Positions 8,787-53,681 of a DNA stretch of 64,000 nucleotides are shown one piece after another. The notes under the pieces are model-generated. The model saw only the letters and a program-made list of their open reading frames with translations. It had not been told where the DNA came from and did no database searches. The DNA comes from Lutimonas saemankumensis. Its GTDB lineage: Bacteria; Bacteroidota; Bacteroidia; Flavobacteriales; Flavobacteriaceae. Position numbers and translations under genes: made by a program. Where the stretch lies: positions 248,001 to 312,000 of the forward strand of contig NZ_JAIUZR010000004.1 of assembly GCF_020171465.1 (NCBI RefSeq), read 5' to 3'. The first letter of the stretch is position 1; each line of letters opens with the position of its first letter.

Positions 8787-9335
8787 TTATAAAAGTATCT
8801 TAATAGGAGTGGTTACACGGGTAGTATCCCATGCGAGAACCATATTAACATGCTTGCCTTTGTCCTTGAATCCAATTGAGAAAGACTCCATGAATTCTGC
8901 TTTGCTGACTTTTGCAGTTGCTCTTGCTACATCGTATTTTTCTTCGTATTCATAGGTCCCCCAAACATCTGTATTTGAGCTTAGAATCAAAGTCCATTGG
9001 TCTTGATCAGGTATTGCATAAAGCACATAAGTACCCGCTTTCACTTCTGAATCTCCAAAAACTACATCATTATAAAAAACAACTTCAGTGGCCTCATTAG
9101 CTCCAACTCTCCAAATTTTCCCATAGGGAACGACCTCTCCAAATATTTCCCTTCCATTTTTTTTTGGTCGCCCGTAGAGAACCTTTATCTTAGGTGGTGT
9201 CACCTTATTTGTCCTGAAATATACAATGTCATGAGGACTTACGTCCAGGGTTTTAAATTCCTGAGAATAACTCTCCTGAATCAGGAATAAAGTAAAAAAA
9301 CACCCTATCGTTAACAAAATATTAATCCTTTTCAT
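8787..9335 (-). CDS. DUF2911 domain protein (copy 1)
   Basis: A 182-residue exported protein with signal peptide (INILLTIGCFFTLFLIQESYS). It has the DUF2911 hallmarks: KVLYGRPKKNGREIFG, VPYGKIWRVGANEATE, AGTYVLYAIPD and DTWGTYEYEE. The family is widespread in Bacteroidota and Acidobacteria without an assigned function. It lies 5 bp downstream of a second DUF2911 gene, to which it is clearly similar along its length, so this is a tandem duplication in one operon. It converges with the amidohydrolase gene with no gap. Confidence 0.87.
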   Translation of the reverse strand: MKRINILLTIGCFFTLFLIQESYSQEFKTLDVSPHDIVYFRTNKVTPPKIKVLYGRPKKNGREIFGEVVPYGKIWRVGANEATEVVFYNDVVFGDSEVKAGTYVLYAIPDQDQWTLILSSNTDVWGTYEYEEKYDVARATAKVSKAEFMESFSIGFKDKGKHVNMVLAWDTTRVTTPIKILL

Positions 9336-9340
9336 AGCAT

Positions 9341-9901
9341 TTATAATTTAGCCAAAATAACATCATGAGCTGCCAGTGGAATATCAACTCGTGTCGAGTC
9401 CCATCCCAAGACCATAAATGTATTGTTAAATTGTTCTTTGAATCCGATGGAAAATACATCAATCTCTTCTGATTCTCTGGAAGGTACCTTGATTCTGACA
9501 ACATCTTTTGTTGCGTCATAGAAGAATGACCCCCAGGTATCAGTTTTGCTGTTTAAAATGACGATCCATTCTTTTTCTCCGGGAATGGTATGCATTACAT
9601 AGGTTCCTGCTTTTACCAGTTTTCTGCCAAAAGACATATCAGTAAAAAACTTCACTTCTGTAGCCTCATTAGCTCCGGTACGCCATATTTCTCCATAAGG
9701 AACCTGATCTCCAAATACCTGATCGGCTTCTTTTTGCGGTCTCCCGTAAACAACTTTGACTAAAGGTTTTGAAGCTTTTCTATGAGTTAAATAGGAAATA
9801 TCAACAGGTGCTTTATCGAGTTTATCAAAGATTTGAGCATAACCAAATCCTGTTGACAGCAATACACAGAAAATCACTGAGGTAATTATTTTATTTTTCA
9901 T
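9341..9901 (-). CDS. DUF2911 domain protein (copy 2)
   Basis: A 186-residue exported protein with signal peptide, first gene of the DUF2911 pair. Motifs: VVYGRPQKEADQVFG, VPYGEIWRTGANEATE, AGTYVMHTIPGEKEW and DTWGSFFYD. It differs from copy 1 mostly in the N-terminal region and in the C-terminal tail, which here ends HDVILAKL. Both copies keep the conserved GANEATE and GTY cores, so neither looks degenerate. The function is unknown. Confidence 0.87.
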   Translation of the reverse strand: MKNKIITSVIFCVLLSTGFGYAQIFDKLDKAPVDISYLTHRKASKPLVKVVYGRPQKEADQVFGDQVPYGEIWRTGANEATEVKFFTDMSFGRKLVKAGTYVMHTIPGEKEWIVILNSKTDTWGSFFYDATKDVVRIKVPSRESEEIDVFSIGFKEQFNNTFMVLGWDSTRVDIPLAAHDVILAKL

Positions 9902-10119: not shown

Positions 10120-10794
10120 ATGAAACTATTAATTGTTGAAGATGAATTGGAGCTGTTAAATGCCACAAGCGATTATCTGGAGAACGAGGATTTCGTTTGC
10201 GAAACGGCCCCAAATTTTTTTGAAGCTGAAGACAAGTTGATTTCTTATAACTACGATGTAGTCATACTGGACATCAATCTGCCGGATGGCAATGGTTTGG
10301 ACCTCTTAAAATTCGTAAAAGAGAAAAGCCCTGAAACGGGAGTTCTAATTGTTTCGGCTAAAGATTCTCTGGATGATAAGTTAAAAGGCCTTGACCTTGG
10401 CGCCGATGACTACATTACGAAACCCTTTCATCTTGCAGAACTCAATTCCCGGGTAAACTCTCTTTTAAGAAGACAGAAATATAAAGGAAATAAGAACATT
10501 ATATTCAAGGAAATTGAAATTGATCCGGTTGCTAAAAGGGCAAAAGCGAATGAGGTTGTCCTTGACCTGACTAAAAAGGAATATTTCTTATTGTTGTATT
10601 TTATCACAAATAAGGACCGTGTTCTCACAAAAGAGGCAATTGCTGAGCATCTTTGGGGTGATAATATAGATATGGTTGATAATTTTGACTTTATCTATAC
10701 CCATATGAGGAATTTACGAAAAAAGCTCAAAAAAAGCGGAGCAAATGACTATTTACAAACCATCTACGGCCTTGGTTATAAGTTTGGTGAATAA
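10120..10794 (+). CDS. OmpR-family response regulator
   Basis: A DNA-binding response regulator of 224 residues. The receiver domain (about 1-118) has the acidic pair in VEDE, phospho-acceptor Asp51 in VILDINLPDGNG, and the switch lysine in GADDYITKPFH. The C-terminal winged helix (about 128-224) ends DYLQTIYGLGYKFGE, typical of OmpR/PhoB proteins. The histidine kinase gene follows 76 bp downstream. Direct repeats with 11-bp phase at 12152-12169 and 12436-12453, just beyond the kinase gene, are the format such regulators bind. It is therefore the best candidate to control the two predicted sRNAs. The signal it responds to is not evident. Confidence 0.93.
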   Translation: MKLLIVEDELELLNATSDYLENEDFVCETAPNFFEAEDKLISYNYDVVILDINLPDGNGLDLLKFVKEKSPETGVLIVSAKDSLDDKLKGLDLGADDYITKPFHLAELNSRVNSLLRRQKYKGNKNIIFKEIEIDPVAKRAKANEVVLDLTKKEYFLLLYFITNKDRVLTKEAIAEHLWGDNIDMVDNFDFIYTHMRNLRKKLKKSGANDYLQTIYGLGYKFGE

Positions 10795-10870: not shown

Positions 10871-12118
10871 ATGAAGTTATTTGAAAAAACGCGTAGGACC
10901 TACCTGATTTACTCAGCTATTATTTTTGTAATATCGAGTATTGTAATTTACTACACCCTCATGCGTGTTGTTTCAAAAAAACAGGATGAGAAGCTTCTTT
11001 GGGACAAGGAACTGATCGAAAAAAAAATCAAATACGAAAACCCTTTACCCATTTTTGACGTCGAGGATCTCAGGTACAAGAATCCCCCGAAAGACACACT
11101 TTACTTTAAAGATACATTAATGTATCATGTTGTCAACAACAAGGAAAAATATGAGTTGTACAGGCAGCTTACTTCCATTGAAACTTTACAGGGAAAAACT
11201 TATAAGATCATAACGAGGACTTCTTTGGTTCGAAGTAAAGATTTTATTCTGGCGATTACCGTTTCAGTTGGTATCGTTGTTATGTTGCTAATTATAGCGG
11301 TTTATATTGTAAACACAATATCAATGCGAAGTGTATGGCTTCCATTTTATAAAAACCTTGAATTGCTAAAGAACTTTTCAGTTGAAAATAATACACCGCT
11401 TCAGTTAAGAGATTCTGATATTGATGAGTTCCAGCAGCTGAACAGTTCATTATCTAAACTGACAAGTAAAATCCATGCTGATTTTAACAACCTTAAAGAA
11501 TTCACTGAAAACGCTTCTCATGAAATGCAGACTCCCCTGGCCATAATGCAGTCCAAATCTGAATTGTTGCTGCAATCTGAGAACCTTAACAATAACCAGA
11601 TTTCGCAGATCAAGGCCATATATCAGTCCGTTCAAAGACTTTCCAAACTCAACAAAACACTTCTTTTACTGTCTAAAATTGAAAATCAGCAATTCAAGGA
11701 CCTTGAGGTCATTTATATCAAAGAAGTACTTGAAAGGCAGCTTGAGATCTTCGATGATTTTATTCTAAACAAAGACCTGGAAGTTGAATTTGAATCAACA
11801 GCTGATACAAAGATCGAGGCCAATCCGCTGCTTTTTGATATGGTTATATCTAACTTGATATCCAATGCAATCAAACACAATAAAGAAAAAGGAAAGATCG
11901 TGATTCAAACGAATGATTTATTCATCAGCGTCTCAAATACTGGAGAACCCCCGAAATTATCTTCGGAATCTTTATTTGAACGATTTAAAAAAGAAAGCTC
12001 GGCCTCAAACTCTTTCGGTCTGGGTCTGGCTATTGTAAAAAAAATATGCGATAATTATGGATGGAAAATAACGCACTCCTTCATTGAAGATCAGCACAAT
12101 ATCTCAATATACTTTTAG
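10871..12118 (+). CDS. Membrane sensor histidine kinase
   Basis: The 415-residue kinase partner of the upstream regulator. TM1 is at about 11-31, a roughly 90-residue periplasmic sensor follows, and TM2 is at about 123-150. The DHp helix carries the H-box FTENASHEMQTPLA with His217. The ATPase domain has N-box NLISNAIKHN, then SVSNTGEPP where a DxGxG G1 box is usual, and G2 box GLGLAIVKKI. The altered G1 box occurs in many Bacteroidota kinases and does not by itself mean inactivity. The short periplasmic part has no recognised sensor fold. It is in operon with the regulator, and about 720 bp without a protein gene follow it. Confidence 0.92.
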   Translation: MKLFEKTRRTYLIYSAIIFVISSIVIYYTLMRVVSKKQDEKLLWDKELIEKKIKYENPLPIFDVEDLRYKNPPKDTLYFKDTLMYHVVNNKEKYELYRQLTSIETLQGKTYKIITRTSLVRSKDFILAITVSVGIVVMLLIIAVYIVNTISMRSVWLPFYKNLELLKNFSVENNTPLQLRDSDIDEFQQLNSSLSKLTSKIHADFNNLKEFTENASHEMQTPLAIMQSKSELLLQSENLNNNQISQIKAIYQSVQRLSKLNKTLLLLSKIENQQFKDLEVIYIKEVLERQLEIFDDFILNKDLEVEFESTADTKIEANPLLFDMVISNLISNAIKHNKEKGKIVIQTNDLFISVSNTGEPPKLSSESLFERFKKESSASNSFGLGLAIVKKICDNYGWKITHSFIEDQHNISIYF

Positions 12119-12151
12119 CGGAAAATTCATAATTGGAATTCTTTTCTGATT

Positions 12152-12186
12152 CTTCAGATTTTCTTTAGAATGACCCCATACATTTG
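12152..12186 (+). promoter_or_regulatory. Response-regulator-type promoter 1
   Basis: CTTCAGA (12152-12158) and CTTTAGA (12163-12169) are 7-bp direct repeats separated by TTTT, an 11-bp phase as bound by OmpR/PhoB-family dimers. After 9 nt comes TACATTTG (12179-12186), a good -7 element. No TTG -33 element is present; the repeats occupy that place, as at activator-dependent promoters. Confidence 0.6.
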
Positions 12187-12191
12187 CTGCG

Positions 12192-12408
12192 TTATCTGAC
12201 TGTTATAGATTTATAACTATTTCGGAACGTTCAAAAATTCATGCTATGAATACTGAAATATGAAGAAGATATCAGCTTTATCTTTTAAAAAGGATATATT
12301 TTGAGGGGAATAGGACCCTTTTTAAAGATAAAAGCATTCAATTGAAACATTAAGCTGTTTTGATTAACTTTAAAAGGCCTGTAAAGGCTATATTTTACGG
12401 GCCTTTCA
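12192..12408 (+). ncRNA. Predicted small RNA 1 of a tandem pair
   Basis: A predicted transcript of about 217 nt starting near 12192 with no credible ORF. Hairpin 1 is GTTATA-gatt-TATAAC (12202-12217). A long hairpin (arms about 12276-12293 and 12317-12334) presents TGAGGGGAAT (12302-12311) in its loop. The box ATTAAGCTGTTTTGATT lies at 12349-12365. A 13-bp hairpin at 12373-12406 ends it. Order, the 47-nt spacing from loop motif to box, and promoter geometry match sRNA 2. Ends are predictions, and no known RNA family was recognised. Confidence 0.58.
12373..12406 (+). terminator. Terminator hairpin of sRNA 1
   Basis: AAAGGCCTGTAAA pairs with TTTACGGGCCTTT (13 bp with one G-U) around an 8-nt loop. 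Downstream U residues are few, so termination could be partial. Confidence 0.6.
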
Positions 12409-12435
12409 TAATATTTACTTCAATTCTGAGCAAAA

Positions 12436-12470
12436 CTTCAGATTTTCTTCAGAATTGATTTCTATTTTTA
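12436..12470 (+). promoter_or_regulatory. Response-regulator-type promoter 2
   Basis: CTTCAGA (12436-12442), TTTT, CTTCAGA (12447-12453) form perfect 7-bp direct repeats at 11-bp phase. After 9 nt comes TATTTTTA (12463-12470), a -7 element with one mismatch. Spacing is identical to promoter 1, and the 20-nt site CTTCAGATTTTCTTCAGAAT differs from copy 1 at one base. Confidence 0.6.
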
Positions 12471-12475
12471 CCAGG

Positions 12476-12680
12476 ATTTTAAACTCAAGTTCTGAGCTTG
12501 AGTTAATTTCATAGTAACAAAGTAAACTTTTAGTTTATTATATAGTTGATCTTATTTTTGATATTGGACTGAGGGGAATGATATTAAAAAGGATTGACGA
12601 GGGCAAATAAACAAATATTAAGCTATTTTAATTTGCACGAAAAAAGAAACCTGTTTGAGCTATTCAGACAGGTTTTTTTT
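12476..12680 (+). ncRNA. Predicted small RNA 2 of a tandem pair
   Basis: A predicted transcript of about 205 nt starting near 12476 without a credible ORF. Hairpin 1 is AACTCAAG/CTTGAGTT (12482-12504), and a smaller AGTAAAC/GTTTATT hairpin follows. TTTTTGATAT pairs with ATATTAAAAA to present TGAGGGGAAT (12570-12579) in a loop. The box ATTAAGCTATTTTAATT lies at 12617-12633, again 47 nt after the start of the loop motif. A strong terminator at 12647-12680 ends it. It is paralogous to sRNA 1, although the sequence between the conserved elements has diverged. Confidence 0.62.
12647..12680 (+). terminator. Rho-independent terminator of sRNA 2
   Basis: AAACCTGT pairs with ACAGGTTT, extended by TGA/TCA in the loop region, followed by a run of T residues to 12680. 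No protein gene precedes it closely; the kinase gene ends 529 bp upstream. Confidence 0.85.
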
Positions 12681-12766
12681 ATGATTTTGTTTCCTTCTCA
12701 AACTCTTTTTTCTTCGCTTTAAAAAAGTACCGGAATGTTGATAACTTGACCCTTTAAAAAGCATAA

Positions 12767-14779
<2,013 letters not shown>

Positions 14780-52629: not shown

Positions 52630-52841
52630 GATTCTAATTTCTCCTTTTTAAACTGGTTATCAAGCCTCCATAAACAGAAATATGTCATTCGGACGCAATG
52701 CTTTTTACAAATCTAAATGAATTTATCGTTTTTCACAATCCTAATTCAAAAGGCACATTTACTGCATGAGAAATTAAAACTGATCCTCTTAAGAATTCCT
52801 TTAGAAATGGGTTTTAAGTTTACACTAAAATTAAAAATGCT

Positions 52842-53681
52842 ATGAATAAAAATATATTTATGGTCGCAATATGTCTATTTGCGATTTTGGGCCTTCACAG
52901 TTGTAGTGATGATAATCCCGAAAATACTTCGAGAGTTCAGTTAAAGTTAATAGATGCCCCTGGTGATTACCAAGAGGTGAATGTAGAAATCATTGATGTT
53001 CTTTACAACAGTACAGAAGACGATGAAGGATGGAAAAGTATTACGGAGGATGATTTTTCTCCCATTATAGTAGATCTGACTGAACTCATTGCGGGGAACG
53101 AACTCCTGTTATCCGATGTCATCATTCCTTCAGGGATGCTGCAACAAATCAGACTGGTACTTGGTGATAATAACACACTCGTCGTAGAAGGAGAGGCAAA
53201 TCCCATAAATCTGGACACCCCAAGCGGACAACAATCAGGATTAAAGCTAAAAACAAATACTGAATTGGAACCGGGATACTCATACACATTCATTCTGGAT
53301 TGGGATGTTCAAAAATCGGTTGTAAAAGCCGGAAACTCCGGAAAGTACAATTTGAAACCCGTGATTAGAGTAAATACAGAAGTAAATTCAGGGTCTATTA
53401 GAGGGAAGGTAGTAGGGAAACCAATTGAAGGTGACAATCTTGTTGATGCGATACCAATAGAAGGAGCCTCTGTGACTGTTTACACTATGGATAATGTTGA
53501 AATAACTGAAACAGCTACCAATTCAGAAGGCAATTTTATAGTGAGAGGTCTTGACCCCGGAGAATATAAAATTAAAATTGAGGATTTCAACTACATTATT
53601 TATGAATCTCAAACCATTGAGGTAGTTGCAGGAGAAACCACTGACACAGGAACCATAGAATTAATGGTTCCGGTTTCCTGA
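52842..53681 (+). CDS. DUF4382 lipoprotein with carboxypeptidase-like regulatory domain
   Basis: A 279-residue lipoprotein (signal ending LGLHSC). Residues about 28-175 are a DUF4382 domain: VQLKLIDAPGDYQEVNVEI, then ILDWDVQKSVVKAGNSGKYNLKPVIRV. Residues about 185-275 are a carboxypeptidase regulatory-like beta-sandwich (VTVYTMDNVEITETATNSEG, FIVRGLDPGEYKIKI). Such proteins sit in the outer membrane of Bacteroidota; DUF4382 proteins have no assigned activity. It is a single gene on the plus strand after the island. Confidence 0.82.
   Translation: MNKNIFMVAICLFAILGLHSCSDDNPENTSRVQLKLIDAPGDYQEVNVEIIDVLYNSTEDDEGWKSITEDDFSPIIVDLTELIAGNELLLSDVIIPSGMLQQIRLVLGDNNTLVVEGEANPINLDTPSGQQSGLKLKTNTELEPGYSYTFILDWDVQKSVVKAGNSGKYNLKPVIRVNTEVNSGSIRGKVVGKPIEGDNLVDAIPIEGASVTVYTMDNVEITETATNSEGNFIVRGLDPGEYKIKIEDFNYIIYESQTIEVVAGETTDTGTIELMVPVS

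Follow-up and report, generated by a model that had tools for sequence, protein, structure and literature searches.

In Listeria monocytogenes, five copies of one small RNA (sRNA), LhrC1-5, stand under the two-component system LisRK and are induced by envelope stress, and Hfq is described as dispensable both for their stability and for the interaction with lapB (PMC4132741). On that account LhrC resembles the array presented here in placing several sRNA copies under one two-component system, but it belongs to another phylum and pairs via CU-rich sites, whereas the loop of our units is G-rich, and the two are likened by description (PMC4132741). The streptococcal csRNA genes lie behind a TTTAAG-N5-TTTAAG direct repeat that is bound by CiaR, and they are comparable in that several sRNAs follow a hexamer-N5-hexamer repeat of a two-component regulator; they too come from another phylum, and the likeness, as far as it is described there, is not one of sequence (PMC9603419). 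The traits that our array has in common with these two systems at the sequence level are a conserved, non-coding structured RNA with a predicted promoter and terminator of its own, several paralogues and a common promoter box.

A different arrangement is described for cpxP/CpxQ of E. coli, where a two-component system drives the mRNA of a small envelope protein and the 3' UTR of this mRNA yields an sRNA (PMC4817254). The form found in the sister clade of our locus (genera g138 and g243) is alike, an RNA in the 3' UTR of an envelope-protein mRNA, whereas the units studied here lack the protein part and are tandem (PMC4817254). Within the Bacteroidota, FopS of Bacteroides thetaiotaomicron is a paralogous sRNA family, as are our units, but its 14 members are described as a single-stranded 5' seed followed by a terminator hairpin, and its authors deposited it in Rfam, whereas our units match no Rfam family (PMC11697453). 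Rfp18 of Flavobacterium psychrophilum is a structured sRNA of the Flavobacteriaceae, likened to the units by description, and its third stem-loop is given as the predicted pairing region (PMC9723704). Our literature searches, with most subscription journals outside their scope, returned nothing joining PorY, PorX and 'small RNA' and nothing joining gyrB, sRNA and Bacteroidetes with three further terms.

Two predicted RNA units between a kinase gene and gyrB

The stretch of DNA that was analysed, here called the window, comprises 64,000 nucleotides (G000:C4:248001-312000) of a 3.58-Mb genome. On its plus strand, a gene for an OmpR-type response regulator (RR, 10120..10794; Pfam Response_reg and Trans_reg_C) precedes the gene for a PorY-family sensor histidine kinase (HK, 10871..12118), which matches NCBIfam NF052314 with 438.9 bits at a cut-off of 350. 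This cut-off is also passed by one HK counterpart each from g138, g165, g243 and Flavivirga, while the best 25 NCBIfam matches of the RR all lie under their cut-offs. The PorXY system of Porphyromonas gingivalis was considered for this pair and rejected. PorX is described as carrying a PglZ domain and as encoded apart from porY (PMC4800418); the adjoining RR consists of Response_reg and Trans_reg_C and does not have the PorX build, and the PorY-family label does not make the RR-HK pair PorXY.

Two adjoining DUF2911 genes (8787-9335 and 9341-9901, minus strand) are divergent from the RR-HK pair, and in g165 (L117) two genes that are similar in sequence by eye have the same placement. Flavivirga and uncultured relatives (L006-L009) possess a related RR-HK pair with a TTAAGA-N5-TTAAGA repeat before the RR gene and again about 250-430 nt 3' of the kinase; in L007 the second repeat precedes an apparent glycosyltransferase gene (by eye). 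In CP070731.1 the kinase gene lies in two distant pieces of one chromosome record (L003 and L010, residues 1-294 and 321-415; L013 duplicates L010 and was counted once), which is a rearrangement or a misassembly. Two contigs of 92,608 bases each, L004 and L005, hold an identical match although their records name Amaricoccus solimangrovi and Pontibacter mangrovi, respectively, and one of the records may be contaminated.

HK ends at 12118 and the ATG of gyrB is at 12842. A preliminary description had placed two units of the same build in this gap, and both are there, with all of their motifs, boxes and terminators at the positions given below. Unit 1 begins with a regulator box TTCAGA-N5-TTTAGA (12153..12169) and a -7 element TACATTTG (12179..12186), 26 bp from the start of the box. 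Its predicted transcript, with a start placed from the -7 element, spans 12191..12406 and folds into hairpin H1 (12218..12260, stem TATTTCGG/CTGAAATA, with paired changes in L026 and L029), hairpin H2 (12275..12335), the apical part of which contains TGAGGGGAAT (12302-12311), hairpin H3 (12340..12365) with arms and loop AATTGAAACA-TTAAGC-TGTTTTGATT, and an intrinsic terminator (12373..12406). Unit 2, also on the plus strand, has a box TTCAGA-N5-TTCAGA (12437..12453), a -7 element TATTTTTA (12463..12470; TACGTTTG or TACATTTG in some relatives) and a predicted transcript at 12474..12680 with H2 (12545..12598, TGAGGGGAAT at 12570-12579 in the apical part), H3 (12603..12636, GCAAAT..AAATA-TTAAGC-TATTT..ATTTGC) and a terminator (12647..12680). 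The common build consists of a promoter, the hairpins H2 and H3 with the respective loop sequences TGAGGGGAAT and TTAAGC, and a terminator; the 5' hairpin that had been attributed to both units is confined to unit 1, where it is H1. The two 17-nt boxes (12349-12365 and 12617-12633) are indeed identical at 15 positions, and the distance from loop motif to box is 47 nt in either unit, but each box is the loop plus the 3' arm of H3 and hence not single-stranded. Both transcripts are predicted to fold more stably than expected (z of -4.79 for unit 1 and -5.38 for unit 2), and for either unit none of 200 shuffles was equally stable.

At gathering scores, Rfam 15 finds two tRNAs only in the whole window. 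A relaxed run over 11900-12900 gives 33 sub-threshold matches, the best with E 0.11 and 29.6 bits against a cut-off of 54; within the gap neither Flavo-1, which had been named as a candidate, nor any other family attains its cut-off, in keeping with the earlier impression that no known family is present.

The units are located directly 5' of gyrB on the same strand, and they could in principle be cis-acting leaders or attenuators of that gene and not free RNAs. Each unit, however, ends in a strong terminator, the units are repeated two or three times with promoters of their own, and the box recurs away from gyrB. In addition, a separate -7 element, TATATTTG (12795..12802, plus strand), serves gyrB; it is located 3' of the two terminators and does not vary among 10 aligned genomes. 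Because gyrB has its own promoter, the units are not its leader, and we regard the leader reading as exceedingly unlikely. A further segment 5' of gyrB, AATGTTGATAACTT at 12734-12747, is likewise constant across these 10 genomes, and g165 too has TGTTGATAACTT there; AATGTTGATAACTT resembles a DnaA box.

Recurrence of the units and pairing of their arms

A DNA search of 60 genomes, the window's own included, matched 23, namely all 22 of the window's genus and one outsider (E 5e-4). The array adjoins the kinase gene, gyrB or both in 21 of the 22; the DNA examined covered only the gyrB side in G005 and only the kinase side in G006 and G011. The one miss is G018, where the match is a palindromic terminator and no unit was seen. 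We collected 47 units from 19 distinct intergenic sequences of the genus, which contain two units in ten cases and three in nine. These units were picked by the loop core GAGGGGA, so that the presence of the core is by construction; the selection does not dictate how many units there are, how they are ordered, or their promoters and stems. The term 'twin' suits the two units of the window but not its relatives, in which there are two or three, nor the sister clade, which has protein genes in the slot. Likewise, the 47-nt spacing between loop motif and box is exact in both window units, but ranges over 47-53 nt in relatives that have kept TTAAGC; this loop is absent at the H3 position in nine of the 47 units, most of which still have the stem. 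The intergenic sequence of L023 (G016) holds, at about 250-400, one more unit in a state of decay, in which TTCAGATTTCTTTAGA resembles the box and GAGGGAAA is the loop; it separates the first intact unit from the second.

No excess of open reading frames is found in the 47 units, where the longest ORF has a mean of 19 codons compared with 22 in shuffles; unit ends for this count were set by an automatic rule that overran or fell short in several units. This agrees with the original judgement that neither window unit holds a credible ORF. Very short peptides of fewer than about 20 residues might still be encoded, and ATG codons do occur in and near H1, but with ORFs no longer than in shuffles and with reading frames that, by eye, are not kept across the aligned genomes, a coding role is hardly credible.

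The loop core stays constant while the stems drift. In an alignment-free arm-swap test on all 47 units, the H2 arms of the same unit pair with a mean of -13.0 kcal/mol, compared with -6.9 kcal/mol after swapping arms between units and -7.7 kcal/mol in the lowest of 60 swaps. For H3 (38 units) the corresponding values are -6.2, -5.0 and -5.8 kcal/mol. In the model-fitted alignment A5, with 51 distinct rows, 85.5% of the cells are paired, compared with 68.3% after shuffling, a value reached by none of 500 shuffles. Changes on both sides occur in 25 of the 31 pairs, and covariation amounts to 0.442 compared with 0.169 in shuffled and 0.06-0.10 in slid alignments. A5 is biased towards its own structure, a bias of which the arm-swap test is free. 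RNAalifold found no pairs on A2, a plain MAFFT alignment of 38 of the 47 units (the nine without full TTAAGC omitted, and one of the 38 resting on a weak box); this null result is probably due to misaligned arms. Alignment A3 also holds 38 of the 47 units. These comparisons show, at the level of sequence, that the paired structure of the units is under selection. The view of the units as selected RNA paralogues is borne out by the fold z-scores, by the 47 units in the genus and by the covarying hairpin arms, and the data support two paralogous non-coding RNA genes in the window, each with a predicted promoter and terminator of its own.

From 38 of the units we derived a model, R1. With stricter filters, a search of 397 genomes of the family gave five positives, three from the window's genus and two from g165, corresponding to 2 of the 237 sampled genera. 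A second search matched five of six g165 genomes and none of 34 others. The context of the array was examined in two g165 genomes; in one of these, G189, the order RR-HK-units-gyrB is identical and two near-identical units are accompanied by a third, diverged one. At other PorY-kinase loci (six, then 25) no match to the array was found at E 0.01, the best being E 0.46 and 0.8.

Promoter box, putative regulon and targets

In 42 of the 47 units a direct repeat TT[CT]AGA-N5-TT[CT]AGA, or a one-letter variant of it, starts at a distance of precisely 26 bp upstream of the -7 element. This box is new relative to the preliminary description, which did not report it. The -7 elements are of the Bacteroidota class TAnnTTTG. 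Five units failed the automatic box test: bin416_2 has a box by eye and a poor -7 element, and in G010_3, G005_3, G008_2 and G003_2 no box was found.

Allowing at most one mismatch, box plus -7 element occurs 52 times in ten genomes, compared with seven times for the reversed pattern. Array units account for 23 of these matches, which leaves 29 others. We inspected 21 of the latter (20 and the window's own), and 18 precede genes of four recurring types: an OmpA-type lipoprotein (in eight of the ten genomes), DUF4382 lipoproteins (four), a secreted beta-helix protein (three) and a 39-residue protein (three). A Pfam search with a single representative per type gave OmpA, DUF4382, Beta_helix and, for the 39-residue protein, no family; the remaining members were grouped by eye. 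The match in the window (52789..52822, plus strand, one mismatch) precedes a DUF4382 gene at 52842-53681 that encodes a lipoprotein by its signal peptide (by eye). The 39-residue protein (MISKHVTTNDMVKTFLNVIEERV...) is conserved and is found behind the regulator box in L088 (reverse, from 1035) and L092 (from 994), with a similar gene in L100. Together, the genes behind the box look like an envelope regulon. Since box and -7 element recur before envelope genes, the units are probably under the control of the OmpR-type RR encoded beside them, which would be the activator of the array. CiaR, the regulator of the streptococcal csRNAs, is also of the OmpR type.

The G-rich loop had been proposed as a seed for pairing with mRNA, a proposal that our searches did not support and for which they yielded no target. 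The exact loop complement ATTCCCCTCA has 26 matches in five genomes, ten of which are the units themselves, and the other 16 compare with 17 for the reversed pattern. None of these 16 sites lies within 150 nt before a same-strand, ATG-started ORF of at least 60 codons. A start-linked form of the complement, TTCCCCTN{0,30}ATGAA, gave 111 matches in six genomes compared with 71 for a control that ignores codon use, an excess driven by two genomes (matches/control 22/21, 13/14, 18/14, 25/10, 11/8 and 22/4). Hfq was not found in the genome by a search that, as a control, was positive in five of 14 known genomes.

The lack of enrichment of the exact complement, the constancy of the loop core on drifting stems and the two or three copies per genome would also suit protein decoys of the RsmY/RsmZ or CsrB kind, whose G-rich loops, borne on weak A+U stems, would sequester a protein that binds RNA, to an extent that depends on the number of copies. 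Decoy RNAs with GGA loops under two-component control are a known theme. The CsrA motif, however, is ANGGA, from which AGGGGA differs, and CsrB-type RNAs carry many G-rich loops, compared with a single one in each of our RNAs. We consider decoys unlikely.

Protein genes in the same slot of the sister clade

A 31-row tree of the kinase joins the window's genus to g165 with support 100/99, groups g138 with g243 at 97/96 and unites all four at 98/96. Of 16 g138 genomes with the kinase, 15 were analysed; in G162 the contig ends 247 nt after it. Downstream of the kinase, the g138 loci encode between one and three secreted proteins, most of them some 70-130 residues long, with weak PepSY-like similarity, and gyrB follows in all five loci where it is within reach. 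The regulator box is present in 13 of the 15 loci in a slightly looser form with the 26-bp spacing unchanged. The PF11396 profile did not reach the array proteins of g138 (18.4 bits for that of G356, the only one tried, under the cut-off of 28.3), and an 11-row alignment of array proteins was used instead. It gives strong matches at the arrays of g138 and g243 genomes, but those in g165 and in the window's genus are all weaker (35.5 bits or less), solitary and away from the array; no box with a spaced -7 element was found near these at the eight loci inspected. Among the outgroups a PepSY-like gene directly follows the kinase in five of 22 loci, one of the five having been put to Pfam, and a 150-residue protein in the equivalent place of one outgroup scores 42 bits against PF11396.

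A conserved G-loop hairpin, GCAAATTGGGTTGATTGC, is found in the 3' UTR in 12 of the 15 g138 loci. In 17 g138 elements it or a variant stands immediately before a terminator such as AATTGAAACAGCTTAAT..ATTAAGCTGTTTC, and L204-L206 have a variant by eye. In g243 (L185, one genome) the first unit is without an ORF and the second encodes a PepSY-like protein, with ATAGGG in both 3' hairpin loops. Tandem secreted PepSY-like genes with a near-invariant 3'-UTR hairpin are thus seen in L159 and L193-L203 (g138) and in L185, and this hairpin could itself be a 3'-UTR-derived sRNA. Some of the genes are reduced: G447 has an in-frame stop in a PepSY-like gene, the second PepSY-like gene of L159 has shrunk to 47 codons, and the last units of L159 and L203 consist of box, hairpin and terminator without an ORF.

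Compared at the DNA level, these loci show that slot and promoter kind are common to the sRNA array and the protein array of the sister clade, while the contents differ. The site seems to have swapped proteins for RNAs or vice versa, and the PepSY-like gene directly after the kinase in five of 22 outgroup loci favours an order in which protein came first and RNA later.

Unit 1 reads AATTGAAACATTAAGCTGTTTT, as though the g138 terminator had lost 20 nt. In local alignments of unit 1 with six of the 17 g138 3'-UTR elements, one element beat all 200 shuffles, and the scores of the other five were reached by 6-36 of 200 shuffles. Against the L159 unit that lacks an ORF, R1 reaches only 18.4 bits (E 0.8). 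Homology between the RNA part of the units and the g138 3'-UTR hairpin is only suggestive. A search of the array for relics of an ORF gave nothing, the best match (E 0.014) lying on the wrong strand. The units and the sister-clade transcripts are probably related through ORF loss, as though the 3'-UTR RNA had outlived the protein. A fuller scenario, which we put forward tentatively and hold to be slightly less probable than its contrary, is that a PorY-family system drove tandem genes for small secreted PepSY-like proteins, with a G-loop hairpin that was already functional in the 3' UTRs of their mRNAs, that the ORFs were lost in the ancestor of the two genera, and that the RNA parts became an amplified sRNA array with the promoter unchanged, for which the ORF-less units of the sister clade would be intermediates. 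A literature search on the birth of sRNAs from protein genes returned, by title, none on bacteria.

The units might, alternatively, be nothing but decayed RR-driven PepSY-like genes that have lost the ORF and are transcribed without function. The sister clade does have protein genes in the slot behind the same promoter kind, some of them decayed as in L159 and G447, and no PepSY-like gene is left in the array. On the other hand, the RNAs are kept in two genera, and the covariation and the invariant loops show that selection on the RNA continues; functionless decay is very unlikely.

We return to a tandem array of stand-alone sRNA genes that is switched on by the adjacent two-component system, acts in trans and is probably related to the sister-clade mRNAs by ORF loss, a reading that we hold with good though not full confidence. 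The PorY-family kinase would sense an envelope signal and, judging from adjacency, phosphorylate its OmpR-type partner. The phosphorylated RR would bind TTCAGA-N5-TTYAGA and recruit the polymerase to the -7 element, which lies 26 bp from the start of this repeat; the geometry is seen in the DNA and the binding is presumed. Each unit is predicted to give a separately terminated RNA of about 210 nt with two constant loops, YTGAGGGGAAT and TTAAGC, carried on selected stems. The trans targets of these RNAs may be envelope-related transcripts or a protein that binds RNA; Hfq would not take part, and additional copies would raise the dose.

The array provides a concrete candidate for sRNAs that a two-component system with a PorY-family kinase would control; this kinase family takes its name from a regulator of type IX secretion. 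Together with the sister clade it forms a comparative series at one site and with one promoter kind, comprising protein units, ORF-less units and pure RNA arrays, so that the step between mRNA and sRNA may be traced and tested there.
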